Source of the DNA: Deuterostichococcus epilithicus
Lineage: Eukaryota > Chlorophyta > Trebouxiophyceae > Prasiolales > Stichococcaceae
Reading direction: 5' to 3'
Length of the DNA: 64,000 bases
NCBI GenBank assembly: GCA_033439295.1
Contig: JAVTLE010000013.1
Location: forward strand, 1,860,001-1,924,000
The notes below the pieces were generated by a model. That model ran no database searches. It worked only from the letters and a program-made list of their open reading frames with translations, and was not told where the DNA came from. Of the stretch, positions 20,532-64,000 are shown piece after piece. How positions within the stretch are numbered: position 1 is the stretch's first letter; every line of letters begins with the position of its first letter. Position numbers and translations under genes: made by a program.

Positions 20532-22522
20532 ATGGGAGACTCGCCCGGTCGCAAGTTCGTCAAGGATGTGATAGCTGGCACGACTGGTGCGCGAGATGTT
20601 AAGATCCCCGAGCGTTTTGAGGTGCTGCTGCCGAGAGCGTAGCGTCACTGACACACTCGCTGGCATGCAGGTGGCCTCGCCGTCGTGGCGGTAGGGCAGC
20701 CTTTCGACACCATCAAAGTCCGCCTGCAGACCCAGCCGTCCGTGAACCCGATCTACTGTGAGTCTCAAATTAGATGCATGCATCTTCTCCGCGGCCGCGC
20801 TGTGGCCGCATGTCTGTCGTCATGACTGGTGCTCTGTTGACCTTCATACTGACTCTCAAACTCCTGAGCGCTGTGCTGATCACTGTGCCTTGGATGCTCT
20901 GCTGCAGCGGGTTTCCTGGACTGTGCTAGGAAGACGATCGCATGGGAGGGTCCCACAGGCCTGTACAAGGTACCGGTCGTTTCTGGTTGTGCCTGGTCTC
21001 CGTGACGCAGCCAAAGGCGGAGGAAATCGTTGTCTGAGAACCTGTCGTCGTATCGCAGGGCGTCGCGTCTCCGCTGGCAGGCCAGATGGTGTTCAGGATG
21101 ACATTGTTCTCAGCCTTTGGTAGCGCAAAACGTTGGCTGTCAACAAATGCAGACGGCAGCACGCGTGCCCTCGTGACATCAGACTTCTACAAGGCGAGAG
21201 GCGACAGTGTGAAGCCTCAGACTGCCTTCCAGGTAGTTCAAACGTGTGTCGGACTTTGTTGTGAGCATGCCACAGACCGTGCTGCCTGGATGCAGGCCGG
21301 AGCGATGACCGGCTTTGCAGCAGCCTTTGCAGAGGGTCCAGTCGACTTTTACAAGTCGCAGATCCAAGTGCAGGTCAGTGAAAGGTCACTCTTGGCGTCA
21401 CTCTGCAGCTGTTGGAATTTCCGCAGCAATGAGTCTCATTTTCCAGATTTGTGCAGTTCGCACCTCCGAGTGCATGAAGTCCATTATGCTCATGCTGTAC
21501 TTGCCGCCACAGATCGTCAGGTCGAAGGTCAACCCAGACTATAAACGTGAGTGCTCAGTCAAGTCAGATGAAGATTGAGGTTACCAGAATCTCACTTACA
21601 GAAAGTCTGACGCTGTCTCCCCGCTGCTGCAGCGCCATTCACAAAGGTGCTGGACTGCGTGCGGCAAACGTTCAGGTACAATGGCGTCAGGGGACCATAC
21701 CAGGTAAGAGTGTCGTCCTGCCCTGACGAAAAACAGCACGTCGCTTGTTGCTGCATTCCTGCCTGCCCGCGCTGCAGCAATGCCATGTGCCGTGGCCAAA
21801 CCCCTCGGGCGCAGCTTCACCCCTTTTCATCCTGAGAGTTGGCTCCCCTGTCGCTTCAGGGCCTGGGCGCCACGCTCGTCCGTAATGTGCCGGCGAATTC
21901 TGTGTACCTGGGGTCCTTCGAGGTCATGAAGCGGGAGGTGGCAAAGTATCAGCAGCGGCCCGTCTCCGAGCTGCATCCAGGTGTGTAATCCCGACGCACT
22001 TGAAAATGGTGACACGAACTGCAGCACGGACGGTATGCGTTTTCCGACAGCCGGTCCTGGAGCTGCCGCAGCAGCTGCCTGGGGCGGCTCCCCTTGCCCT
22101 CCGAAAAGATTGTCCTGTGTCATGTGCCAGCGGTGGGCGTCTGAACAGCAAGTGTCTGTCCATCCCGCAGTCCGCTTGGGCTCAACATTGCTACTGAGGA
22201 CTTGACCGAATCCTATGCAGCATTGGAAACGGCGCTGGCCGCCTGGGCGACATATTCTCCTTTCTTTGCAACGCTTCTAAATCCTTGGGGATTGCTGCTG
22301 AATTCTCGGTTTATACTCCCTTGCAGCGACGGTGACGGCGCTTGGCGGGCTGGGCGGCATCTTCTACTGGATGGTCATCTTCCCGGTGGACGCCGTCAAG
22401 TCGGTCATGCAGACGGACGACATCCGCAAGCCGCAGCGCAAGTACCCCACCATGGCCTCCGCTGCACAGGTGCCGCACCACTGCTGTGGCTCCTTGCAGG
22501 CGTGGTAGATGCCAGAGCACCG

Positions 22523-22581
<59 letters not shown>

Positions 22582-22972
22582 GCTGCTGCCGCTGCTGCTG
22601 CCGCTGCGGCAGCTGCCGCTGCTGCTGCCGCTGCTGCCGCTGCTGCTGCTGCCACTGCTGCCGCTGCTGCCGCTGCCGCCGCCGCCTCAGAATTTCAACC
22701 TTATGCTCCCTGTGACGAGGCCGACTGCCTCGCCACCAATATATCATGTCCTGAAGGCAAACTTGTTGAGGGGAAGAGACTGTCCGATGTGCAGCTTGCG
22801 TGTCCTTCAAGCATCTGATATGGCTGTGTTTCCCGTGCAGCAATTGTGGGCTGAGGGCGGCCTGCGGCGTTTCTACAAGGGCTTCACGCCAGCCATCATC
22901 CGGGCGGCGCCAGCAAACGGTGTCATGCTGATGACGGTGGACAAGGTCACCATCTACCTGGCGGACAAGTGA
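20532..22972 (+). CDS. Mitochondrial carrier, SLC25A20/BOU (carnitine-acylcarnitine carrier-like) subfamily
   Basis: This is an inner-membrane transporter with three repeats of about 100 residues and six helices. Ten exons: 20532-20586, 20671-20757, 20908-20969, 21059-21193, 21296-21373, 21513-21546, 21633-21703, 21860-21980, 22327-22469 and 22841-22972. They total 918 nt, giving 305 aa plus TGA, the usual length for this family. The repeat signatures are GQPFDTIKVRLQTQP, EGPVDFYKSQIQVQ and VIFPVDAVKSVMQTDD, each followed downstream by a G-x-x-G-x-Y/F segment (EGPTGLYKG, NGVRGPYQG, EGGLRRFYKG). The first signature matches the SLC25A20/BOU group best. In Arabidopsis the related BOU carrier is needed for photorespiration. 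The substrate here (acylcarnitine, glutamate or other) cannot be read from sequence. Intron 4 is GC-AG (donor 21194). Intron 9 holds a long CTG repeat. Confidence 0.93.
22522..22685. repeat. CTG/CCG trinucleotide microsatellite
   Basis: About 160 bp of CTG triplets interspersed with CCG and occasional variants. The uninterrupted CTG run at about 22528-22580 is roughly 17-18 units. It lies inside intron 9 (22470-22840) of the mitochondrial carrier, on the sense strand. Long poly-Leu, poly-Ala and poly-Gln reading frames across it are artefacts of the repeat. Confidence 0.95.
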
Positions 22973-45330: not shown

Positions 45331-48198
45331 TCAAGACTGGATTTCAAGGCTCAGGTCCTCGGCGTTGACGATGGACGGTGCCGCCTTGGGGATGGCGACA
45401 AAGTCGCCGTCCACCCAGGGCAGCACGTCCGGCTTGTTGGCCACCGGATACTTCTGCAGCACGCTCGCCACGTTGGCCGCCGCCAACGTTGCCTGCGCAG
45501 CACAACAGGTAATGGTTCGGCCGAGCTGGTCAGGTCACATCCCCAAAGCCTGCAGCACCTGGCAACCGGAGCTGCCAGGGGACTGCTGCTGGGTCAAGCA
45601 CTGCAAGCAGTGAGCTCAGCCATGTGAGATCTACAGTCACCGCAACTGGTGGTGCTCAAGAATGAAAAGACGAGCGCACCATGCCAGCACGAGTCCAGTA
45701 GGATGCGGAGGCGATGTGGGGCACGATAACTGCGTTCTCGCAGTCCAGCAGCCCGGGCTTTGTGTCCGGCTCGTCCTCAAACACGTCCAGGCCCACCCTG
45801 TGGGGTTGTGGCGCCACAGAAGCGCACCGTCATGCTGCTGGCACCTTGCATGCAGAGTGCAGGAGGGTGCGATGCGACATGTTGCACCCGAGCCGCGCCC
45901 TAGAGAGCTGCGAGTGCCGTGCACGTGCGTAGCCGATTGGCTGCCGACTTTCGAGGCAGCGCCAGTGCATGCTTCAGGAACAGCTGCGAGTGCAGTCGCT
46001 GTCGCCGCGGCAAGCTGCTGGCATGTGTGCCGCTCGCTGCTGAAGACCGGACGAGGCTGTGGGCCAGGGCCCCTGCATTGCGTGCCATGTCAGTCTGCAC
46101 ATGTCCCCCAAGCCCTGAAGGCTGACCTCCGACCCACCTGAAGTTGGGGTTGGCCTTGAGGTGCGCCACCAGGGCAACCTCATCGATGACGAGCCCCCGC
46201 GCCGCGTTGACCAGCACCGCGTCCTCCTTCATCATCCCCAGCCGCGCCTCGTTGACGAGGTGCTTCGTGTCCTTGTCCAGGTTGCAGTGCAGGCTGACCA
46301 CCTGCGGTTCACAACGTGCAGCTGGTGCCGTCAGCCGCAGGGCACACGGCGTCGTTGCTGCAGGCAGCCGCGGCTGAATGTGGTTGCTGCAGTCGGCCGC
46401 AGGCTCAGCGCACCGTGTTCGCTGCGAGTTGGTGGGGACCAGTGGCTTCCACGGGCGCCCGCTGCTACATGTCCCTGGCTGGCTCGCAGGCACCCAGGCA
46501 CGCACAGTCGAGCTGGCCACAGGACATCATAGTGACAAGCTTTGGGTCAATACGCTAAAGCAGGTGCATCTCATGCAGGTTCGACGGCATCAGGCGGCAT
46601 CAAGAGGGGTCCACACGTTGGAGGCCTTGAGCACGTCGTCAACGGAGTCGAGGCGGGTTACGGACAGCGGCTCCTCGCCGTGCGACTCCAGCAGCGCACT
46701 GTACTCCTTGGCATACTCCTCAAGCCGTGAGTTGGGGTACACATCGTAGTACACGATGTCGCACTTGTGGCCCTGCGGGTTTTGGCAGGGTGTTTTGGTC
46801 AGGAACATCGGGCGCCTGGAGGTCTGGCTGGTGCAGCTGCGACAGGGTCAGGCGCGCGAGGTTCTGCAAGCAGGGCCGGCCGCCTGCCTCGTCAAGTGAG
46901 CCGAACAGCAGGCAATGGTCCGGCGGTGGGCGTCACTGCCATGAAATTGGCGGGCACAGACGCTGGCGCAGTGCCGTCGCAGGTGGTACTGTGACGCACC
47001 TCCATCATCATGCGGGCATAGGCTGTGCCGATGCGCCCGGCACCGATGATGCCTACGGTCTTCCGCTGAAGCAGGTTGCCTGCTCACATAGGACATGCTC
47101 AACTGAACATCTGCAATAACCTGTACATGAAGAGGACTCCACACGGCTGGGCATGCTGACCTGGGCTGTCACTATGATCATCAACCACGCAGGAGGCTTG
47201 AACCCTTCCTTCCCTAGTCTTTGCGGGGCGGAAGGCGCACCGACAAACAGCTGCGGCAGCCAGCCCTCGTACTTGCCCGCCCGCATGAACTTGTCGCCCT
47301 CCACGACTCGCCGCGCCGCGGCAAACGTGAGCGCCAGCGCCAGCTCTGCCGTCGTCTCTGTCAGCACACCTGCGCCAGTCCTTGCCGTGCGAGGGCGTTC
47401 AGGATGCGTCCTCAACTTCCACGTCGAGTTGCATCCAATGCTCTGTGCAGGACAGCCTGCCGGTGCCTGTGCTGCGTGCATAGCGTCTCAGGCGGCATGA
47501 GCTGCGTGAGGGTCGTAGTCACAGAACGGCACACCTGGCGTGTTGCCAACGGCAATGCCACGCTCTGTGGCGGAAGGCACATCGACGTTATTGTACCCGA
47601 CCGCGTAGTTGCTGTAAGCTTTGCCGCCCGCTGCCTTGAGCGGCTCAAACAGGTCCGCGTTCCAGCCCTGAAATTTGGGTGCGTTGGTCTGAGAGGTATT
47701 GAAGACTGGCGGGCGGGCGGGACATGCATCAATCTGGATGCAGACCAGGGTATGGCAGCCATTACAATTCAACCGCATTCAATGAGATGTCTCACCTCTG
47801 TGAGCTGTCCGATCACTCCGTCGCACTTGTCACCGATCAGCTGCTTGATGTCCGAGTTGCTGAGGATGGTCTTTTCTGCCGTGCAGACTTCGACGCGGCA
47901 GCCGGTGGAGGTGAGCAGCTGCAGCCACCGCTCGCCCGGCAGGGTCTTGGTGACCAGCACTCGCTTCTTGCCGTCCTCGTTGTGTACCTGGCGACATGGG
48001 CATTGCTCGATCGCCCAGGGCGGCCAGGTGCACTCGAGGTGCAACGACGCGAGCTTTGCTAGTCATGGTGCAGACAGACCCCTCTCTTGCCTGCACAGGC
48101 AGATCGCTGGACTCCGACGACATCGCGCGTATGCCGCCAAACAGCCGCGCAGGTGCAGCCCTGCTGCGCAGCCCCAGCAGCGCGCTCCTCAGTGCCAT
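45331..48198 (-). CDS. HPR1: Hydroxypyruvate reductase (NADH-dependent D-2-hydroxyacid dehydrogenase)
   Basis: Reduces hydroxypyruvate to D-glycerate, the last reduction of photorespiration before glycerate kinase. Nine exons: 48198-48097, 47987-47796, 47667-47535, 47369-47241, 47079-47000, 46772-46617, 46301-46138, 45797-45680 and 45492-45331. They total 1236 nt, giving 411 aa plus TGA, close to known algal HPR1. Motifs are NYAVGYNNVDVPSATERGIA, VLTETTAELALALTFAAARR, the Rossmann motif GIIGAGRIGTAYARMM, VVSLHCNLDKDTKHLVNEAR, VLVNAARGLVIDEVALVAHL (catalytic Arg), GLDVFEDEPDTKPGLLDCEN (catalytic Glu) and AVIVPHIASASYWTRAGM (catalytic His). The N-terminus (MALRSALLGLRSRAAPARLF) looks like a mitochondrial presequence. 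The C-terminus ends LEIQS, not an SKL-type peroxisomal signal. It is the first of four adjacent photorespiratory genes. Confidence 0.96.
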
Positions 48199-49352
48199 CA
48201 ACGATCGCCTCCTGTCTTCTCGCGTACACCAGGGCAAGACGTCTCCTGATCAGCAGCGATACGCCAGACGCAGCAGAGTAGTTTGCAATGCTGATGGAGA
48301 AGCTTGATTGAACAGAAACGCGGTCAGTTCACGACCAGGCGATTACCCATCAGAGCCCATCAACCCTGACCTGATCGCATTTCCGGAACTCTCGCACCAG
48401 CAGGAAGCTGAAGCTGAAGCGCACTCACTGTCACTGTCCCCGCAACTAAGGAAACGAGAACCAAAGTGCGAGCGGGTGGAATGCACTCAGGCGGGGTCGG
48501 CCAAGCAGCATGCACACGACAGAACAGGCACCTGGCTCGAGGGTCAGGCTGACAGGAAGTGTCCCAGGTTCGCTAGACAGTCGCTGGTAGGGACCAGTGT
48601 CAATAGGCGAGGGCTATCGCAAAGTGTGATGATCAATGCGGTGTGCTATGCACCTAACGGCCCCCTGAAAAGCGCACTCACTGTCCCCGCCAGAAGGACA
48701 TATTTCAAAGCGCAGGTGAGTGGAACGCACTCAGACGGGGTGGGCAGGCACTCCCACATGCAGGAGAAGGCAGCGCAGTGACGCTCCGGCTGAAGCTAAA
48801 ACTGTGATGGGATTTCAATGATCATACAAATTACATTCCGAGCATGCCGGAAGAGTCCGTTCTCTTGCTGCCAACAGCCCGACTGAATATGAAGCACGCG
48901 GTCAATCCTCACCACAAAACTTTCAGTTCAAACAGTGGTGCAATGGAATGAAACAGACGACTGCTGCAAGACTGCGACAATTGACCGCGATCAGAGATGT
49001 AGCTGTGCACCTCCCGATGCACAGTCGCAACCCCCAAAACCGTTGCACTTGCTGGTGCCCCTCCCTATGCCAGCTCCCGGCTGCGGATGACCTTGCTCGT
49101 CGACTGCGAGTTAGAGCAGCCACGAAACTGAGGTTGTGTCGATTTGGGATTGTGGCAAAGCGAATGTGGCAGAATTCATGCAAAACGCCGAGTGCATCGT
49201 GCAGCAAAACACACATTCCGGTATGTTGCCTCGTCCGCACAGCCGTCTAACAAAAGGAGCCGGCGAGTGGCCAGGCAGCCTCGCAGACACACAGTTGGCG
49301 AGGCCCGAGTGCACAGGGTGGTAAAGCGTCTAAACCCAATGACTGTGCCCAC
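48199..49352. other. Intergenic region between two photorespiratory genes
   Basis: About 1.15 kb holds the promoter of hydroxypyruvate reductase and the unresolved last exon and 3' UTR of the serine-glyoxylate aminotransferase gene. The HPR1-proximal half carries a diverged direct repeat (48418 and 48671). No gene was recognised; open frames here lack any domain. Confidence 0.45.
48418..48746. repeat. Diverged direct repeat, period about 253 bp
   Basis: Segments at 48418-48511 and 48671-48746 both begin AGCGCACTCACTGTC and share a later block GTGGAA-GCACTCAG-CGGGGT with small indels. Both copies lie upstream of hydroxypyruvate reductase. Confidence 0.6.
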
Positions 49353-52200
49353 CTGCCAGTACTTGACGGCCTCGCCGACGCCGGCGCCGGGAGTGAAATC
49401 GGTGAAACCCGCATCCAGCAGCGCCATCTCCGCGCCCGCAATCGCAGACAGCATGCCCACCTCGTCCATGTTGCCTAGGTGCCCGATGCGGAACACCTTG
49501 CCTGACACCTGGCCCGATGATTCGAAAGCATGTTGACGAGTTTCTGACTGAGCTGACGTGATCGATGAGCACAGAGACCGCATGAGCTTGGTCACCAGCA
49601 GGCTGCACACAGGCGCCATTGATGCAAGGTTAGCAAGCACCCAAGGTCAGACACAGCGGGTCGCTCACCTTGGCCAGGCCAACGCCCAAGGAAAGGTTGT
49701 AGCGGGCGTAGGCATTGACCACCACGTCATCGGCGTTGATCGACGATGGCACCTCAACCACCGTCAGGCTGTCCGACTTCCACCGCTTCTCCTTGCACAG
49801 CAGGTCCAGCCCCCAGCCGGCAACCGCGCGCCGCGTGCCCTCGGCCAATCTGCAGCACACAAGAGCACATTGCATACAACAGCCGATTGTCTGCAGGGAG
49901 GCTTCAGGTGGCTTCATAAGAGTATGAGAACTTGGGGAACGACCTGGCCACCCATTGTGAACGATGGCAATGGCGATGCTAGAAACCGGCCGTGATATTG
50001 GCCAAGAAATGGAAGATGGCACACGCTGCCAGCGGGCCCACAGCATCCATTTTGTGTTGGATATTTTGGATATTTATTGGATTTCTTAACCGGTGGCTCG
50101 CAGACAACTGATCCTGCAGGAACCTACAGCAGACACCACAGGCTTGCATGTGAGCTGCAGTCTCACCGCTGGTGGCGCGTCACGACGTTGGCGATGCCCT
50201 CGTCCAGGAGCAGGTCCAGGGAGGCACGCAGGCCGTACAGCAGCGGGATGGAGGGTGTGTAGGGCACATTGCCCGAGGGGTTCATGCCCAGCTGCCAGTC
50301 CCAGTCGTAGTACATGCGTGGCAGCTTTGCGCTCTTGCGCATCGCCAGTGCCTGTGGGACGGGTGGCTGTGACCTTCAGCTGTGCTGCTGCTGTCAGTCT
50401 CGAGCCAAGCATTGGCAACAGGGCAAAGCCTGCTCATGCATGCACTAGAAGCACCGCACCACAATGCTGTAGCAATAGTGCATTCTTCCTTCAGTGTCAG
50501 CTGCATCAGGAGCAGGCGGTGCTTGGGAGGCGCCGCTGCTGGCACCTTTTCGGACACGGCCATCAGCGCAAGGCCGGTCGGCAACGACAGCGCCTTCTGC
50601 GAGCCGGTGACGGCGATGTCGACGCCCCACTTGTCCATCTCGAACGGCAGCGCGCCAATGGAGGACACGCCGTCGACCTGGGTGGATGACAACATGTTCA
50701 GGGATGATTCGCAGGGCTGCTTCTGGTGTCGGGAGTCACGGTGACGCTTGCCTGAAACCAATTGGCCTTGGGACGAATACTGAAAGATATGCTGTGTCTG
50801 CCCAGGGACAGCCGTCCTCTGTGCTGGCGACCAACAGGCAGGCGGCCTACAATTCTGTTCTCATTGCCAACTATCTGCAGGTTGATAAACGCACCAGAAA
50901 CAGGGCATCGTGCCCGGCGGCGTCCAGCGTCTCCCGGATGCGCGGCAGGTCGCTGGTGACGCCAGTCGCCGTCTCGTTGTGCACCACTGCCACCGCCTTA
51001 ATTTTGCCGCCAGTGTCTGCCTGCAGCAGCACAACCCACGCTGAGGAGGTGTAGTTCTCGCATTCTAAGTTGCATGTTGTTCTGATAACGCATGCGCTGG
51101 CAGCGTTGTCAGAACAACATGCAACTTGGAACCACTGAGAAAGAGTCCCATGTTGCTGTGCTCCGTCACAGGTCGCTGGTGTTGTGATTATTCTGGACTG
51201 CCACGACACCGGCTGGGATGATAATCATCATGTACCTTCAGGACCTCTGCGAGCTTCTCCTCATTGGCGCCCTCGCCCCAGGGGCAGTCGATGACCGTGA
51301 CGTCCAGCTGCAGCGCCTTCATCATGTCCACCTGCAGGTGACATGCATCAGAGTGAAGATCATCAAACAATGTCAGGCCTCGTGGGTCCTGAGGTGCATG
51401 CAAAAGGCGCATTGGTGACTTGCCTGCCCTTGGGGTCGGGTGACAGCTGATATCAACTCGCGTGGGATCTCACCCAGAGCTTGGAGAACTGGCCGTAGGT
51501 GAAGGTGACGATGCGGTCGCCCGGCGACAGCGTGTTGGAGAGCGCCGACTCCCACCCGCCGGTGCCGGTGCCCGGGAAAATGAAGGGCGTGATTTTCGAG
51601 CTGGGCGCCACGTCTGAGGTGTTGTAAATGACCTTTGAGTCCTCCAGGACCTTGATGAAGAAGCTCGCGAACCATGGGTCTCGGTGGTTGTAAGACGGCA
51701 CCGACATCGCCCGCCGCACCTTCTCGTGGATGTTGACCGGGCCTGCGGTTCCGCAATGCGGCAGGCATCTCAGTGCTTTGCGCTTGGACCGGGGGCAACC
51801 TGACAGCGCGATCGTGTGCGTCATGATGCAGCATGACACAGCGCCTGCAAGCGCACCGCACCTGGCACAAACAGGTGGTTCCTGCCCGGTGGGTCATAGG
51901 AGAAGTCTGCCGAGTCGGCGTATGTGGCCGCAGTCCTAGGGTGTGGCCCGCTGCTGCATGGTGCCTGCAAGCGATCGATTGGTGTCAGTGAGTGATCTGA
52001 CCTCGGGATGACGGGCTGACACATGACGATCGCCAAGCCATGCCAGAGCGGCCAAGATAGGTTGCCAACCCCTGCAGGCATCGGATCAGACGCGCCTGAA
52101 TGACCGATGACGCTGTTGCTGGCACGTCCGAACAGCACGCAGTACGAGCAAGCAGCGAGTTCAGCAGGCCCTTACGCGCGGCTGCCGCCTGCCGCAACAT
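49353..52200 (-). CDS. Serine/alanine-glyoxylate aminotransferase (class V, PLP)
   Basis: Transfers the amino group of serine (or alanine) to glyoxylate, giving glycine and hydroxypyruvate, the substrate of the adjacent reductase. Exons: 52200 (ATG) to about 52100, about 51950-51862, 51742-51474, 51331-51236, 51016-50895, 50677-50546, 50351-50167, 49849-49669 and 49508-49353. Motifs are [80 protein letters not shown], the PLP-lysine segment [40 protein letters not shown] and [20 protein letters not shown]. The N-terminus ([20 protein letters not shown]) looks like a mitochondrial presequence. A donor follows KYWQ at 49353, so a short last exon lies further left and was not found. Exon 1 end is unresolved. 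Confidence 0.93.
51067..51127. repeat. Long near-perfect hairpin (25-bp inverted repeat)
   Basis: Arms 51067-51091 and 51103-51127 are complementary at 24 of 25 positions around an 11-bp loop. The single difference would be a G-U pair in a plus-strand RNA. It lies within the intron of the glyoxylate aminotransferase gene between exons 51236-51331 and 50895-51016. Confidence 0.92.
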
Positions 52201-52460
52201 CGCAGCCGGCAACAAGAAGGCAGAGGAAACCGCTGGAATGCTACGCGCGGGCAACGGAGCTCGGCTACGCAGGATAAGGCCGTTCCACCATGTCCACACA
52301 TCAGCTCAGCAAGCAAACCTGCTCGCAGGGGAGATAATTGAAACGAGTCACAGAACGCGACACGTCACAATTATGTCAAAGCGCCATATCCAGTGCCACG
52401 AAGCAGGTGAAACTACACTTTCACGCTGCACACTGGTGCTGCACTAACGAACCAGCCACC
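52201..52460. promoter_or_regulatory. 260-bp bidirectional promoter between glyoxylate aminotransferase and glycolate dehydrogenase
   Basis: The two start codons face away from each other across only 260 bp, so both transcripts must initiate here or share elements. The right side ends in an ideal start context, GCCACCATGG. A GACACGTCAC element with an ACGT core lies near 52360 and could bind bZIP-type factors. No further motif is claimed. Joint control of two consecutive pathway enzymes is the natural inference. Confidence 0.65.
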
Positions 52461-55400
52461 ATGGGCCGCCGTGTGCTTACACGCACGCTGGGGCGGTCCC
52501 TCGCGCTGCTGAACAACGGTGCTGCTGGCCAAACAAGTCGGGGCCTCAACACCGGCCTGCTGGCCTCGCGAGGCGCCAGCATCCGCAGCGCTGTGGACAA
52601 AGCCACGCCGGCGCACCGCGATGCCCTCAGCGCGCCCCGGACCCTGGTCAGCGCGCTGCCAGCGGAGAAGGAGGTCTCCGACGATGAGTCTCACACCGTG
52701 CGCGGCCTGCCCAGCGACTCGCCGTCCGGCTCGAGGCCAGAGGTGGTCACGGACCACTTCGGCGCCATCAGCATGATTTGTGACGACAATGAGGAGGAGG
52801 TGAGCAAACGTTCGTGCATGTTTGCATCCGTGGCCTGGGGTCAGATTTTACTCGTACAACTGCTGTGCCGGATCGATTGGGGCGCGCATGCTTGGTTCAG
52901 TGTTCATCGGCAACGTCGTGGCTGCGCTGACGACGCCTCCGCCTCGGGATGCACATGGTGCGCTGCACCTGCGGCCAGCGCACCTTACTGCCCAAGGAGG
53001 TTGACACACCACCGCCTCTCCATATGCACAGCGGACCGCGAAGTGGGAGAACAAGGATGGTCGGCGCATCGAGGACGGCCGCTACGCCGCCTTCTCCGAG
53101 GCCATCTCTGGCTTTATCCCCAAGGACCGCCAGTTCACGGACCCCGTCCGCACCTTCGCCTACGGCACCGACGCCAGCTTCTACCGCCTCAACCCCAAGA
53201 TGGTGGTGAAGATCCACTCCGAGGAGGAGGTGGCCCGCATCCTGCCCATCGCGGCGCGCATGCAGGTGCCTGTCACCTTCCGCGCGGCGGGCACCAGCCT
53301 CTCCGGCCAGGCCATCACCGACTCTGTGCTGCTGAAGCTCAGCCACACCGGCAAGAACTTCCGCAACTACACCATCCACGTGAGTCCATCTTGGGTCTTC
53401 CTTCTGGGCCTCTGGTTTCCGAAGTCTTCATGAAAGCGCCACAGTGGCCTTTCATCATGTGACAAAGCCATGGTGCTCTCCTTTGCTTTCGCTTGGCCAG
53501 TATGTGGAATGCTATAAACTTTCCTTCTCCAACCAGTTTGGTGCACGACATTCATCTTCACTGACGGTTGTGGCCATTGCAACTCTTGATCAACCTTTCT
53601 GACGCAACAACAACCTTCATGAATACGACAGGGCGATGGCAGCCAGATCACGGTGGAGCCGGGGCTGATTGGCGGCGAAGTCAACCGCATTCTGGCGGCA
53701 CACAAGACGGCGCACAAACACCCGGTCCAGTACAAGATTGGGCCTGACCCGTCGTCAATCGACTCCTGCATGGTGCTGCTTCAGATCCTCGCTCCCTGTG
53801 TCTTGTGTTTACGTGCTGTGTGTTCATCCTACGCAGCTGTGGTCGCCCGCTGAACCTCGTAAGTGTGTCCAACCTGCAGCGCTGGCTTGCACAGCGCAAG
53901 CCAGTGCAGGATCTAATCACTCAGCGCTTTGCTCATTTCACTTGCTGCACTGCACGTGTGAATTGCTTCTGACCAGCCAACCTGCAAACACTTCCTCCTC
54001 CGCAGGTTGGTGGCATGGTATCCAACAACTCCTCTGGTATGTGCTGCGGCGTGAGCCAGAACACATACCACACGCTGCGCGACATGCGCGTCGTGTTTGC
54101 GGACGGCACCCTGCTGGACACAGCGGACCCCGACTCCCGCGCCGCATTCCTCGAGGTGGGTTTGGCTGGTCCATCGTAAAGCACGCTATCTGGCTGCTGT
54201 GGTATAATCTTTAAAATTTGCTATCTGGTTTGATACCATTGCAAAGCTTGCTATTCGGCTGCTTTGGTGCCATAGTGTACCAGCAGCTCGTGTGGCATCA
54301 TGTCTCATGTCCGGCCGATGCCGGGGGATCTCCGTCCTGCCTCCCCATACCATCAGCTTGACTCCCTTCCTGGGCCTTGCTGCAGCTGCTGAAGACATCG
54401 CATCCCCTCTTGCACTGGACCTATCTTGATAGCTTGTCTCGCTGCCTCCCTATGCTGCAGTCGCACAAGGAGCCGTGCCTCCAGGCGCTCACTGCGCCGG
54501 TTGAATTGCCTTCTACTGAACATCTCTTGACGCTTGTCCCTGCTGCCATGCATTGCAGTCGCACAGGGAGCTTTGCCAGGGCGTCCAGGCGCTTGCTGCA
54601 CCAGTCGACTCTGTCCTGACTCACAACTTTTTCTTTGGTACACGCAGTCACACAAGGAGCTGTGCGAGGGCGTCGTGGCGTTGGCGGCGGAGGTGCAGGG
54701 CGACCTACTGCTGACCAACCTCATCCGTCGCAAGTTCGCCATCAAGTGCACCACCGGCTACTCGCTCAACGCGCTGGTTGACTTCCCGCTGTCCGACCCC
54801 ATCGAGATCATCAAGCGCCTCATGATCGGCAGCGAGGGCACGCTCGGCTTCGTGTCGCGGGCGACCTACAACACCGTGCCCGAGTGGCCCAACAAGGTGA
54901 CACCCTCGATCTCAGTGTGCTCCAACGACAGTGTGGCACTGCTGATGTGGAAGATTAGAGGAGGTTCTGCACTGCGAGGGAGGCTGGACCCCACACACGG
55001 GCCAAACAGTCCTGTCCCTTGCGCATTGCTCTGCGGTGCACCCACGCTGGCGGCCACGGCTGCTTGTGCCCATCAGCACTGGCGACGTCAGGCTGCCAGT
55101 GTCTCTCTGTTGTTGCTGACCCTTGTGTTTGTGCTGGCCTGCAGTCCTCGGCGTTTGTGGTGTTCCCGGACCTGCACTCTGCGTGCGCTGCGGCGTCGGT
55201 GCTGCGCGACAAGACGGCAGTCGACGCCGTCGAGATGTTTGACCGCGCCTCGCTTAGGTGTGCTTTCACTGTGCCATGATGTCCCGTGCCATGATGTCCC
55301 GAAGGCCGCAGACGTGGGACCTGGTGCACCTGCAGCACGTCAGCATTTGGACTGCGACGATATCGGATATGATATATATATATATATATATATTCAGAGT

Positions 55401-58400
55401 ATGCCGGACAAGAGTATGCCGTACATATGCCAACAAGCTGCTGCGCTTGGAAACTGTCCGCCATGGCTTTGGGTAGGAGGACTTCTGGCAGAAGGACTCG
55501 ACCTGATGTGGCTGCTCTCCAATCTGTACCTTGTTTTCCCCATGAAACCCTACTCTCCATTGTGCCACAGGGAGTGTGAGATCGACGAGGACCTGGTGCG
55601 GTTGGTTCCTGACATGAAGGGCGCGGGTGAGGGTGCTTCCGCGCTACTCATCGAGTGCCGCGCCAACGGCCCCGATGCCCTCAAGGTGCCACCTCACTTT
55701 TTTTGTCACCGCTGCGTGCGTGACGCGCGACACGAACCTTTTTGACACGGAATATGCATTGCAGATGCTCTGGCGGAGTGCTATCTGGCCCCCGAGTGCA
55801 GATGTCCTGGCTGGGCACTGCGAGAGACTCTGCGCAGGCCTAGACACCGAGCCACACTTTACCTCGGAACACACCCTCTGCTGCTGCTGATGCACCACTT
55901 CGGAACCCGCTTCCCAGGAGCGCATCTACGAGGTGACGAGTGCGCTGCGGGAGAGCGGCCTCAAGTTTGGCGCGCACTCCGACCAGCTGCAGGACCTAGA
56001 CAACTACCCCTTCCGCAAGGACCCCGCCGAGTCCAAGGTGTTCTGGGACGTGCGCAAGGGCCTCATTCCCATCGTCGGCGGCGGCCGCGAGGCCGGTACG
56101 TGCTTTTGCACTATACCTGCGGCCTGCTGGGTGTTGACAGGCGTGCTGTTCAAGCATTGTGAGAAAATCATATTCAGTGATCTGCCAGCGTGCCCAGCCC
56201 ATCTACTAGAGCTGGCAACCTAGCCAGGCTGAGGCAGGCGCTGGTGTGCATTTCTGTGGGTATGCCGCAGGGTCTGTGAGCACTGCTGTCTGCATCATGT
56301 GTGCCGAGGCAATTGGATGTTGTGGCGTTATTCTGGCTTGCCGCGCTGTGTCACAGCCATCAGCTCGTCATTGGCCATCCCGCAGGCACCTCATTCCTGA
56401 TCGAGGACGTGGCCTGCCCGGTGGACAAGCTGGCGGCGATGACGCAGGACTTGGTGGACATGTTCAACAAGTTTGGCTACAAGGACGCCTCCTGCTTCGG
56501 CCACGCGCTGGAGGGCAACCTCCATCTGGTCTTCTCCCAGGTGTGTGCTCACCGCCCCGCTCCCTCCCCTGCACGTCGCCCGGGCTACTACATGGGATAT
56601 AAAGGCTACTAGGCAGCCACATGCTTTCGGCACAGGGCAGACACTCTGTCTTGGAGGGCTTGCACCGTAGCCTGTGGGTCCCCGCTGTGTGACGTCCAGC
56701 CAGGATGGATGCAAAGCACTTGCTGCACCCGTACGCACTGGCTGTGCGTGTGTCTCGCCAGCTTATGGTTTCCGCCCAGCGCTGCTGCAGGGCTTCCGCA
56801 CACCGGAGGAGGTGGAGCGCTTTGGCGCCATGATGGACGAGATGTGCTACATTGTCGCCACCAAGCACAGCGGCTCCCTCAAGGTGCGCACCTCTTGTGC
56901 TGCGCCTGGCGGCAGACGCCCACGAGGGGACCCGTCAGCAAAGCGTGCACGCACCGCTGCGTCGTGGCCGGTTCAGCCAGCCTGCACGGATGCACTTCTC
57001 GTCTCGTCCCCCCCTCCTCGGTTGTCTGCGGCCAGAACCTCAAGATGATGGTGCCACGTGATGTCAGGGTGAGCATGGCACGGGACGCAATGTGGCGCCG
57101 TATGTGGAGATGGAGTGGGGCGGCAAGGCATACGACCTCATGTGGCGCCTCAAGCAGCTGTTCGACCCCGCCGATGTGCTCAACCCGGGCGTCATCCTCA
57201 ACAAGGTGCATCCGAGTCCACTGCTGACTTCCAGTCCCAGGCTGTGGCTGTGACCGGGACCCGCTGTGGCTGTGGCCATGCCCAGCGGCACCTGTGCTTG
57301 CGACCTCTCAGCGCCTGATCGAAAGCAGATGCTCACCATAGCTCATCAGCAATCAGCGCCTGCCTCCTCTGAGCATCAACCATGCACATCATGTTTGCTG
57401 TGCCAGGGTTTCGTGCTCATCCCCTGCGTATCCCCTGGCTCATCCCCTGACCCAGCCTTTGGCACCGCTGCAGGACCCTAACCTGCACATCAAGCACCTG
57501 AAGCCGTCGCCGGTGGCCTCCGAGATCGTGGACCACTGCATCGAGTGCGGCTTCTGCGAGAGCAATTGCCCCAGCCGTGACATCACGCTCACGCCGCGCC
57601 AGCGCATCGCCTCCTACAAGGAGATGGCCCGCCTCAAGCAGCTGCCCGGCCCCACGCCCTCCGAGCAGCAGCGGTGTGCACCTGCCTTTCCTCAGCCCTT
57701 GACCAGCCTGCGTCTGCTGCGTGTTGCAACCGCTCTCCTGAAGTGGGTTTGCCCTGGACGAGAGGGCGAGAGGTCTGTGCGCTATCTGTGCGGCTGGGAG
57801 ATTGTCCACAGCTGCATTTGATACCCTGACGTTGACCCCAAGAACCCTCATCGTGCACACAGGCTGAAGGACTTCCAGCGCATCTACGACTACCAGGGCG
57901 ACGCCACGTGCGCCGCAGACGGCATGTGCCAGGAGAAGTGCCCCGTCAAGATCAACACCGGCGAGCTCATCAAGAGCATCCGGTCGGAGGAGCTCAAGGA
58001 GTGGAAGAAGGCCTCCGGTGGCGCCATGGTGCGACTTTTTCTCTGCGTCATCAGAACCAAAAGGGACTTTGCTATTGGTTCCCTCCACGCACTCGACGTG
58101 AGTCGCAGCGGAGACGGGCGTGTCTGCTTGTGGTGGAAGCTATCTTGATTTATGGGTGAATACGCAGCTTGTACATCGCCTGTGCCTCGCAGCCTGTCTA
58201 GCTGCACCAAAGGGCATCGGCTTGCCAGCTTGCGATCGGCCTACCAGGGGCAGACGTCTGTCGCTCGCTGAACGACACCCATCTCTGCCCGTCCTGCAGT
58301 CGCTGGCAAACCACTTTGGGGCGCTGAATGCGGCGGTACCGCCCTTCCTCAACGTGGTGGACTTTGCACACCGGCTGCTGGGCCCCTCGCCGCTGCAGTA

Positions 58401-60624
58401 CATCAGCAGCCGCCTCAACCGCGCCAGCAACCACCTCATCCCAGAGTGGAACCCCTACATGCCCAAGGTGCGCAGGAATGCAACTGCAGCCTGCTCGTGC
58501 TGCAGCTGCTGCTCCGAATGGCCGCCGCCCGGCCCATGCTCGGTGCTGGCAGCACCTTGCTCGTCTTGCCCAGACCTGCATCCTTTGTCGTGCCATGTTC
58601 CCTGCATGTGCAGGCTCTGCAGCGCCACAGGGCTTTGAGGTGGCGAACCGATTGGTAAAACCCTGATCTATCACATGCGTAGGGCGCCTCCAAGCTGGAC
58701 ATGAATCCGCCCAAGCCATCGGCGCCCGCCGAGGGCGTCCCCCGCCAGGTGTGTGACCCTCACCCCAGAGCCCACATACATGTGTTGCACACCTGCAAGC
58801 ACCACCTCAGCATCTGGCTGCTGTGACCGACGCTGCCCGCAGCGCTCCCGCCTGTAAGCGAGACTTGCCATGCACGGAAGGCGACCACGCCGGTGCAATG
58901 ACCACGGCGCCTACCGGCCGCAGGTGGTGTACATGCCAGCGTGTGTGACGCGCATGATGGGGCCGGCGCGCGGCGACGAGGAGACCGCCTCCGTGCACGA
59001 GAAGCTGCTCAGCCTTTTCGCCAAGGCCGGCTACGAGGTCATCTACCCGGAGGTGCGCCGCGTCGGGCGCCTTCTGTGCAGTTAGCAACAACCGCTCGCC
59101 GGCCGTCGCCACCAGTACAACGCCAGTAACGGCTGTCGGAGCGCCCAAGACTCTGCTGCCGAGTCAAATGCGAGCTCCGAAGTCGAAGCATGCCAGCCTG
59201 TCGCTTCACCATGCCGTGTTGTGTTCCGACTGCAGGGGCTGGGCAACCAGTGCTGCGGCATGCTGTTCAACTCCCGCGGCTTCAAGGAAGCCGCCGCCGT
59301 TAAGGCCGGCGAGCTGGAGGTGTGCTGCAGAACCCGTTCTGCTGAACAACTTCTAAGCAATCTGGCATTTCGAGAGCCTGCATACCCGCAGCAATGCACG
59401 CTTTTCTCGACTCGCAAGTGGCAACTGCTGCAGCATACCTCGGCGAGGGTTCCACATCAGAAGTGGCCCTCAAGCGCGTCGCAGCTGTGTCACCTTGCTG
59501 ATGGCTGTGGGTTGCTGCCACCGCAGGAGTCGCTGATCAAGGCCAGCCAGGGCGGCAAGCTGCCCATCGTGTGCGACACCAGCCCCTGCCTGTCCACGCT
59601 CAAGGGCGCGCTGACGAGCCCCGACCTCAAGTGAGCCCCTGCCTGCGCCGTCAAACCTCTACACGCGCATGAAACAGCCATGCTGTCGCAGCGCGCCCCC
59701 CCGGTCTCCCCACCTGCTGCAAGCGCCTGCAACGTCGACCACTATGTACTTGGGCATCATGTGCCTATGAGGTCCAGCAGTACCCGAAACATCCCCGAAG
59801 CCCAGCAACATCCGAACCTTCCCCGAGCCCCAACCAGCATCCGAAACATCCGAGCTCATATCCGCCCGCGAGGCACCAACCTACCTCTGCGCCCCCCGCA
59901 GGTTCTCGCTGTACGAGCCGGTGGAGTTCATCAAGCTGTTCCTGGCGGACAAGCTGGACTTCAAGAAGGTCAAGCAGCGCGTCGCCATCCACGTGCCCTG
60001 CTCCTCCAAGAAGATGGGCGTCTCCGACGCCTTCTCCCAGCTGGCCGCAATGTGCGCCGAGGAGGTGGTACCCTCCGGCGTGCCCTGCTGCGGTGCGTCC
60101 CCGCGGCCTCGCCGGTCCATCCTTTCCCTCCTCGCCCTCCCCCTTGCCGCTGGAGGACCATGTTCTTGACAGCGGGCTGATCTCGCAGCTGGCATGCGTC
60201 CCTAGAGTGCATGCTGTGCACCAGGTGCGGGCTTTTAGAGTAGTGTGTGGCAGTGCACAGACCCTTGAGTGCATGCTGTGCATCAGGTCCGGGCGTTCAG
60301 AGTCGTGTGTGGCGGTGCACAGTGTCGGTGGTGCAGTCGTAAAGTCGTTGGGTTCTCTGACTGGGTCACCCGCACGCAGGCATGGCGGGCGACCGGGGTA
60401 TGCGGTACCCGGAGCTGACGGGCGCGGCGCTGCAGCACCTGGAGACGTCTGGCTGCTCCGACGGCTACTCCACCAGCCGCACCTGCGAGATGAGCCTGTC
60501 TAACCACTCTGGCATCAACTTCCGCGGCCTGGTGTACCTGGTCGACCAGGCGACGACCGCCAAGCCCCGCGGCAGCGGCGACACTGCGGTGCCGGACGTG
60601 CCGGCCTCCACGGTCGACAACTGA
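52461..60624 (+). CDS. GYD1: Glycolate dehydrogenase (FAD-linked, Fe-S and CCG domains), mitochondrial type
   Basis: Oxidises glycolate (or D-lactate) to glyoxylate, passing electrons to the respiratory quinone pool in chlorophyte mitochondria. Twenty exons: 52461-52799, 53032-53379, 53632-53772, 54006-54155, 54648-54896, 55145-55257, 55571-55685, 55918-56095, 56386-56540, 56791-56883, 57068-57205, 57474-57673, 57863-58028, 58300-58467, 58683-58748, 58924-59052, 59236-59319, 59527-59630, 59902-60092 and 60380-60624. All phases match, giving 1123 aa. The presequence is MGRRVLTRTLGRSLALLNN. The FAD domain shows VPVTFRAAGTSLSGQAITD, VGGMVSNNSSGMCCG and GSEGTLGFVSRATYNT. The oxidase C-terminal domain ends GEHGTGRNVAPYVEMEWGGK and LFDPADVLNPGVILNK. 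The Fe-S domain has CIECGFCESNCPS and CAADGMCQEKCPVK. The cysteine-rich repeats give NQCCGMLFNSRGF and VPCCGMAGDRGMRYPELTG. The assignment is firm. Confidence 0.97.
54451..54702 (+). repeat. Tandem vestigial exon copies ahead of glycolate dehydrogenase exon 5
   Basis: Three segments, at about 54451-54505, 54551-54605 and 54641-54702, each contain a splice-acceptor-like GCAG followed by TCGCACAAGGAGC or close variants and then similar exon-like sequence. Only the third is continuous with the conserved reading frame (SHKELCEGVVALAAEVQGD). The other two break frame or lack a usable donor, so they are read as decayed partial exon duplications. Confidence 0.75.
55272..55301. repeat. Tandem 15-bp repeat, two copies
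   Basis: The unit TGCCATGATGTCCCG occurs twice in tandem within a glycolate dehydrogenase intron. A TA dinucleotide run of about 20 bp follows near 55373-55392. Confidence 0.85.
60206..60325. repeat. Tandem repeat, period 62 bp, two copies
   Basis: The copies start at 60206 and 60268, both with AGTGCATGCTGTGCA, and share most positions through GTGTGTGGC-GTGCACAG. They lie in the last intron of glycolate dehydrogenase. Confidence 0.85.
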
Positions 60625-61192
60625 CGCTGCTGCATCGTCGAACCGGTCGACCACCATCCTCGCTTGGGAACAGGCGGGGGCATCAAGGCTGCAGCGGTCG
60701 GGGGCTGCGCGTGGTTTTATTCCTTCTTGTTTGGCAGTCGGGAGAGAGGGTGAGAGCACGTTGGGATTAGAATTGACGTTTCTGCGATGGTAGCGACTGC
60801 TTCTGCGAATTGGTTGGGGGAGAAGACACGCGCTGCACCACCCCTCCAACAGAAACGGTGTTTGACGCAGTTCAGCTGACATGCCTGCAACCGTGCATGG
60901 AGTCTGCTGGGTCGTGCTGCCAAATTTTGCTGCATTGAATAACATTCGAAAAACATCTGCTCATCTTACTTCAAGCTAGTCAAGAAATATGTCGAAAACT
61001 TGAAAATATGAGCCAATAGCCATTACAGCATGGAGCATCCCTCAAAATTATTGCAGCGACATGCTTGGGCCAGATCAATCGTCCATGCTTTCGCTGTTGA
61101 CATGCCACATTTTGCAATCGTATGGTACAACAGCCACTTCCCCATCCCAGGAAATCACACAGCGACATGAAGCGGCCCTCCATCCTGCCCCC
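60625..61192. other. Convergent intergenic region
   Basis: A 568-bp stretch, AT-richer than its flanks, holds the 3' UTRs of glycolate dehydrogenase (+) and the alanine aminotransferase-like gene (-). Apart from one candidate polyadenylation signal nothing was recognised. Confidence 0.45.
61023..61027 (-). terminator. Candidate polyadenylation signal TGTAA (minus strand)
   Basis: It lies 166 bases downstream of the stop of the alanine aminotransferase-like gene on its own strand. The support is motif and position only. Confidence 0.4.

Positions 61193-64000
<2,808 letters not shown>

Follow-up and report, generated by a model that had tools for sequence, protein, structure and literature searches.

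Five adjacent, intron-rich genes predicted to encode photorespiratory enzymes lie on one contig (C11) of the nuclear genome of Deuterostichococcus epilithicus. In our judgement they probably make up a eukaryotic metabolic gene cluster that serves the glyoxylate half of photorespiration, whose products would work in the mitochondrion, whose divergent gene pairs would be coupled and whose linkage would be kept by selection. The window is the 64,000-nucleotide stretch C11:1860001-1924000 of the 46.8-Mb, 21-contig genome; the following 40 kb were also examined (104 kb in total). The block is 24.9 kb long, and its features, in window coordinates, are as follows.

45331-70248 (C11:1905331-1930248), both strands: photorespiration block, five adjacent intron-rich genes
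48198-45331, minus strand: HPR1, hydroxypyruvate reductase (9 exons, 411 aa)
52200-49176, minus strand: SGAT, serine:glyoxylate aminotransferase (9 exons, unbroken reading frame)
52201..52460, no strand: divergent spacer between SGAT and glycolate dehydrogenase, candidate shared promoter (260 bp between start codons)
52461-60624, plus strand: putative glycolate dehydrogenase, fused FAD and Fe-S parts (20 exons, 1123 aa)
66247-61193, minus strand: alanine aminotransferase, related to GGAT (13 exons, 533 aa; extends 2.2 kb past the window edge)
66576-70248, plus strand: AGXT-type alanine:glyoxylate aminotransferase (12 exons, 423 aa; outside the window)

Gene content and order of the block

Gene models were built by splice-aware alignment and exon reading. 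Whole-region gene prediction merged neighbouring genes, and its output was used solely to gauge coding signal and to read exons. Pfam domains were sought in the frames of 45.1-64 kb (per strand where genes were seen) and of 64-74 kb, and catalytic motifs were assessed by eye against consensus sequences. All five models run uninterrupted from ATG to stop with GT-AG introns, apart from a single GC-AG intron in the alanine aminotransferase gene, and the order is HPR1 (-), SGAT (-), glycolate dehydrogenase (+), alanine aminotransferase (-), AGXT type (+). A sequence-only reading of the window had described four of these genes, all of which are present in the order it gave. It had also suspected that the block might be larger than the window, and the fifth gene does lie wholly past position 64000. 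The enzyme families bear out its view that the genes cover consecutive or parallel steps of one pathway.

The spliced alignment of HPR1 scored 1080 over 376 residues of Arabidopsis HPR1. The model has the 2-hydroxyacid dehydrogenase domains PF02826 and PF00389 and contains NAARG, DVFEDEP and PHIAS (the Arg, Glu and His motifs). Its top solved entries are glyoxylate reductases, and its solved relatives in general carry the names of glyoxylate and hydroxypyruvate reductases, with no plant HPR1 in the best 60 of 85 matches. A scan of viral contigs with HPR1 gave no match.

SGAT and the AGXT-type protein both carry PF00266, the latter from the Pfam frame scan of the extension. The nearest solved entry to SGAT is 6pk1 ('Serine--glyoxylate aminotransferase', which we take to be of plant origin) at 431 bits, with the next entry at 158. 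The AGXT-type protein (query without the five residues of a small exon) matches 2huf (411 bits), 1vjo (403) and 1h0c (357), and scores 110 bits with 6pk1; its solved relatives carry the names AGT or serine-pyruvate aminotransferase. Both are class V aminotransferases, the first nearer to SGAT than to AGXT and the second nearer to AGT/AGXT than to SGAT. They are only 27% identical to each other, which rules out recent tandem duplication as the origin of the block. The SGAT model is least certain at the donor site of the first exon and at the 3' end (read-through to the stop at 49176 or splicing to a further exon). In the AGXT-type gene a 19-base exon, supported by a paralogue on C4, restores the frame after the seventh exon.

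The fourth gene, which the sequence-only reading had called an alanine/glutamate-glyoxylate aminotransferase homologue, does encode an aminotransferase of that group (PF00155), but it is nearer to alanine aminotransferase (55% identity over 433 residues) than to GGAT (50% over 474). Its best solved entry is 3tcm, 'Alanine aminotransferase 2', at 571 bits. Its 3' part (61193..64000) is inside the window and the remainder outside. The sole ambiguous base of the block, one N at 64441, falls within an intron. Among the best candidates scored, genome searches with the alanine aminotransferase query found this single copy and no second gene, and thus no separate GGAT.

The putative glycolate dehydrogenase contains PF01565, PF02913 and Fer4_8. 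It has the GYD1-type layout of GlcD-like FAD domains fused to a cysteine-rich C-terminal Fe-S part. The protein scored 159 bits against glcD and 144 bits against YdiJ, both under the cut-off, and its C-terminal part scored 84 bits against the GlpC model NF008369 (cut-off 278). Related fused enzymes use other 2-hydroxy acids, as in YdiJ, a D-2-hydroxyglutarate dehydrogenase; glycolate is the putative substrate here. Among the matches listed, none of the NCBIfam models, which are made for prokaryotes, was reached at its own cut-off.

The earlier claim that no unrelated gene lies between these genes agrees with a codon-score test for which HPR1, SGAT and alanine aminotransferase were the training set. 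The top stop-free stretches of the gaps scored 5.6-6.9 (one 73-base sub-stretch, 2.4), within the range of introns (n=28, median 4.95, maximum 7.7). Exons of glycolate dehydrogenase and AGXT outside the training set (n=30, two short AGXT exons left out) had a median score of 20 (range 3.7-58.6). Since some exons score as low as 3.7, the test could miss an isolated, very short exon within a gap.

Origin of the adjacency

We take a eukaryotic metabolic gene cluster to comprise at least three adjacent, non-homologous genes of the same pathway. The five genes of the block belong to four protein families, and no gene was detected between them. If the genome is assumed to hold 9,400 genes (one per 5 kb), 17 of them in the pathway, random order would be expected to yield about 1e-10 runs of five contiguous pathway genes. 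The adjacency is not due to random order.

An assembly artefact joining separate loci is very unlikely. The block is known from one assembly, but it is inside a 3.08-Mb contig, the 104 kb examined contain no N run longer than one base, the spacers are continuous and each gene is complete.

Acquisition of a complete glycolate operon from bacteria by horizontal transfer, with introns gained later, appears more improbable still. Bacterial relatives of the glycolate dehydrogenase cover nearly the whole of a 989-residue query and are up to 46% identical to it in their best segment, and the bacterial BhcA family matches SGAT at 481 bits, under its cut-off of 650. However, no relative of the other four proteins was found at E <= 1e-8 in the flanking DNA (8 kb at most, often less) of 37 bacterial loci. 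The best neighbour at E <= 1 had a value of 0.011, with the block itself as positive control, so that none of these loci offers a neighbour in support of an operon origin. HPR1, SGAT and alanine aminotransferase align almost full-length with the Arabidopsis enzymes, and the block genes are intron-rich and on both strands, which also argues against transfer. The bacterial glycolate operon, glcDEF, resembles the block in that glycolate dehydrogenase is clustered with glyoxylate metabolism. It differs in that the block has one fused protein, separate spliced genes and two coding strands, and has aminotransferases and HPR1 instead of malate synthase.

Neutral linkage is a more serious alternative, although we consider it rather unlikely. 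It would mean that a chance rearrangement produced the block, or that a loose ancestral set was compacted here, with no present selection or co-regulation. Support for it comes from Chlamydomonas reinhardtii, in which these genes had been said to be scattered. Table 2 of PMC8320531 lists the enzymes under the names GDH (Cre06.g288700), AAT (Cre10.g451950), AGT1 (Cre06.g294650), SGAT (Cre01.g005150) and HPR1 (Cre06.g295450). Matched by name, the genes that are adjacent here thus lie on chromosomes 6, 10, 6, 1 and 6 and are non-adjacent there, as claimed, but three of the five share chromosome 6, which is partial linkage rather than full dispersal. In the same list, GDH, AGT1, HPR1, SHMT2 and GDC-H are all on chromosome 6, where SHMT2, HPR1 and AGT1 fall within 30 locus steps (PMC8320531). 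In simulations based on these listed loci, three of five genes on chromosome 6 had a chance of 0.04 (assumed chromosome lengths). Some three of 17 genes fell within 30 locus steps with a chance of 0.006, for a span picked post hoc and an assumed step size. That some pair of the 17 should lie within 16 steps, as AGT1 and HPR1 do, is unremarkable (0.22). The chromosome 6 grouping suggests that loose linkage may be ancestral and older than this block.

In D. epilithicus, too, one SHMT gene is on C11, and the block has no clear shared promoter motif, both of which are consistent with neutral linkage. Against it stand the strict adjacency, which loose ancestral linkage alone does not yield, and the expected number of about 1e-10 for such a run, in which five genes from four families follow one another and no further gene was detected. 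Chlorophyll synthase, presumably a near neighbour of Chlamydomonas AGT1, was a candidate for microsynteny. Its matches, exon pieces that are each under the whole-protein cut-off, are on C19, a contig other than that of the block. These exons point to a phototroph, and the fused glycolate dehydrogenase and the type of SGAT are suggestive of a chlorophyte.

Adjacent primary-metabolism genes of one pathway are also seen in the nitrate-assimilation clusters of fungi and other eukaryotes (PMC2040219, PMC6400420). Those clusters concern another pathway, and no transport gene was found in the block.

Predicted compartment, regulation and metabolic role

The reaction steps of the block are peroxisomal in land plants, in which they are carried out by GOX, GGAT, SGAT and HPR1. 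The reaction set is thus shared with land plants. Theirs, however, uses a peroxisomal glycolate oxidase, whereas here the enzyme is a dehydrogenase whose N-terminus is Arg-rich, and HPR1 lacks a C-terminal SKL. The N-terminus of HPR1 is Arg-rich and its C-terminus is LEIQS; that of Arabidopsis HPR1 is, we assume, SKL. Counted over 25 residues, the N-termini of HPR1, glycolate dehydrogenase, alanine aminotransferase and the AGXT-type protein contain 3-5 Arg and zero acidic residues. SGAT has a weak mitochondrial signal (2 Arg, 1 acidic residue). The AGXT-type protein ends in GKL, which we take to be a faint likeness to a peroxisomal signal. In Chlamydomonas, glycolate oxidation, the transaminase steps and hydroxypyruvate reduction are mitochondrial (PMC8320531, PMC4867895, PMC8264790). 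By analogy with that routing we think it most likely that the block proteins work jointly in the mitochondrion. The AGXT paralogue (C4:981812-986001) is 63% identical to the block protein over 366 residues. No Arg-rich presequence is apparent by eye in the frames upstream of it, which suggests that the two copies may serve different compartments.

Two pairs of genes in the block are divergent with short spacers. The 260-bp spacer between SGAT and glycolate dehydrogenase has no coding signal and no motif was found in it, and 328 bp separate the start codons of alanine aminotransferase and the AGXT-type gene. Shared promoters are possible for at most these two pairs, because HPR1 has a tandem arrangement and the genes for glycolate dehydrogenase and alanine aminotransferase converge. 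A promoter comparison found no motif common to all three upstream regions. The two spacers have a slight excess of common 7-mers (15 vs 11 in shuffles) and 8-mers (5 vs 2.9) and have no 9- or 10-mers in common. The EE-1 motif occurs once, upstream of HPR1. In Chlamydomonas, AAT1, GDH, HPR1 and SGAT1, which correspond to four of the five enzymes, depend on CIA5 and CO2 (PMC8320531). Because of this dependence, co-expression of the block genes would be expected here whether they were clustered or not.

The reaction scheme that follows draws on what is known of these enzyme families. Glycolate dehydrogenase would convert glycolate to glyoxylate, from which the AGXT-type enzyme would form glycine and pyruvate with alanine as amino donor, and alanine aminotransferase would renew the alanine from pyruvate and glutamate. 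This pair is a plausible stand-in for the plant glutamate:glyoxylate aminotransferase. SGAT would convert glyoxylate and serine to glycine and hydroxypyruvate, which HPR1 would reduce to glycerate. The two divergent pairs with short spacers probably tie the enzyme that makes toxic glyoxylate to those that remove it, and the linkage was probably retained because imbalance among these steps would be costly.

A stronger reading, which we hold only tentatively, is that the block is a selected supergene: steps that are peroxisomal in land plants would, in green algae, have shifted to the mitochondrion, and would here be united in one co-regulated block, with alanine aminotransferase and AGXT replacing GGAT. 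To our knowledge, gene clusters for primary metabolism are uncommon in photosynthetic eukaryotes, and aimed searches of the open-access literature found no report of a photorespiratory gene cluster among the matches listed. If the supergene reading is true, this would be the first such cluster known in a eukaryote. Conservation of the block in relatives would make the idea that toxic intermediates favour clustering testable on a central pathway. Alanine aminotransferase together with AGXT is a candidate answer to how glutamate nitrogen is supplied for glyoxylate transamination in chlorophyte mitochondria, and the block defines a small set of genes that one could delete or relocate as a whole.

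Other pathway genes and the neighbourhood of the block

The genome was searched exon by exon and the best candidates were scored, so that the counts are lower bounds. These searches found no other close copy of HPR1, SGAT, alanine aminotransferase or glycolate dehydrogenase. Besides the block, HPR1 had one weak match (28%, on C5), and the matches of SGAT outside its own locus were the two AGXT genes. Five HPR candidates are given for Chlamydomonas (PMC8264790), and by analogy this genome may encode further enzymes with HPR activity.

The pathway search covered GDC-P, GDC-T, GDC-H, SHMT and PGP. GDC-P was found on C18, GDC-T matches on C14 and C18, GDC-H on C3, and SHMT on C5, C1 and C11, the last at C11:1318971-1321554, 0.58 Mb from the block. 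A PGP-like gene is on C1, and one more piece, a weak match, is on C5 (exon pieces under the family's whole-protein cut-off). The extension of the block to GDC, SHMT or PGP that the sequence-only reading had hoped for is thus not present, with the matches for these genes located elsewhere, and the block amounts to a single sub-module, which leads from glycolate to glycine and from serine to glycerate, rather than the whole pathway.

A mitochondrial carrier gene at 20562-22919 (+) was considered as a member. It was rejected: its similarity to Arabidopsis BOU, a photorespiratory carrier (36%), and to human CAC (38-39%) is about equal, and further predicted genes occupy the 22 kb that separate it from HPR1. 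Pieces of the flanking genes, joined by eye (42.7-44.9 kb on the plus strand, about 41 kb and 70.6-72.6 kb on the minus strand), matched no Pfam family. The product of the flanking gene at 70.6-72.7 kb (-), of which the scanned piece had no Pfam match, apparently has a thylakoid-lumen-like signal and a Pro-rich stretch. At about 24-34 kb of the window (-), a rough prediction gave genes that, as named by eye, resemble a histone deacetylase and a reductase whose C-terminal part is FNR-like.
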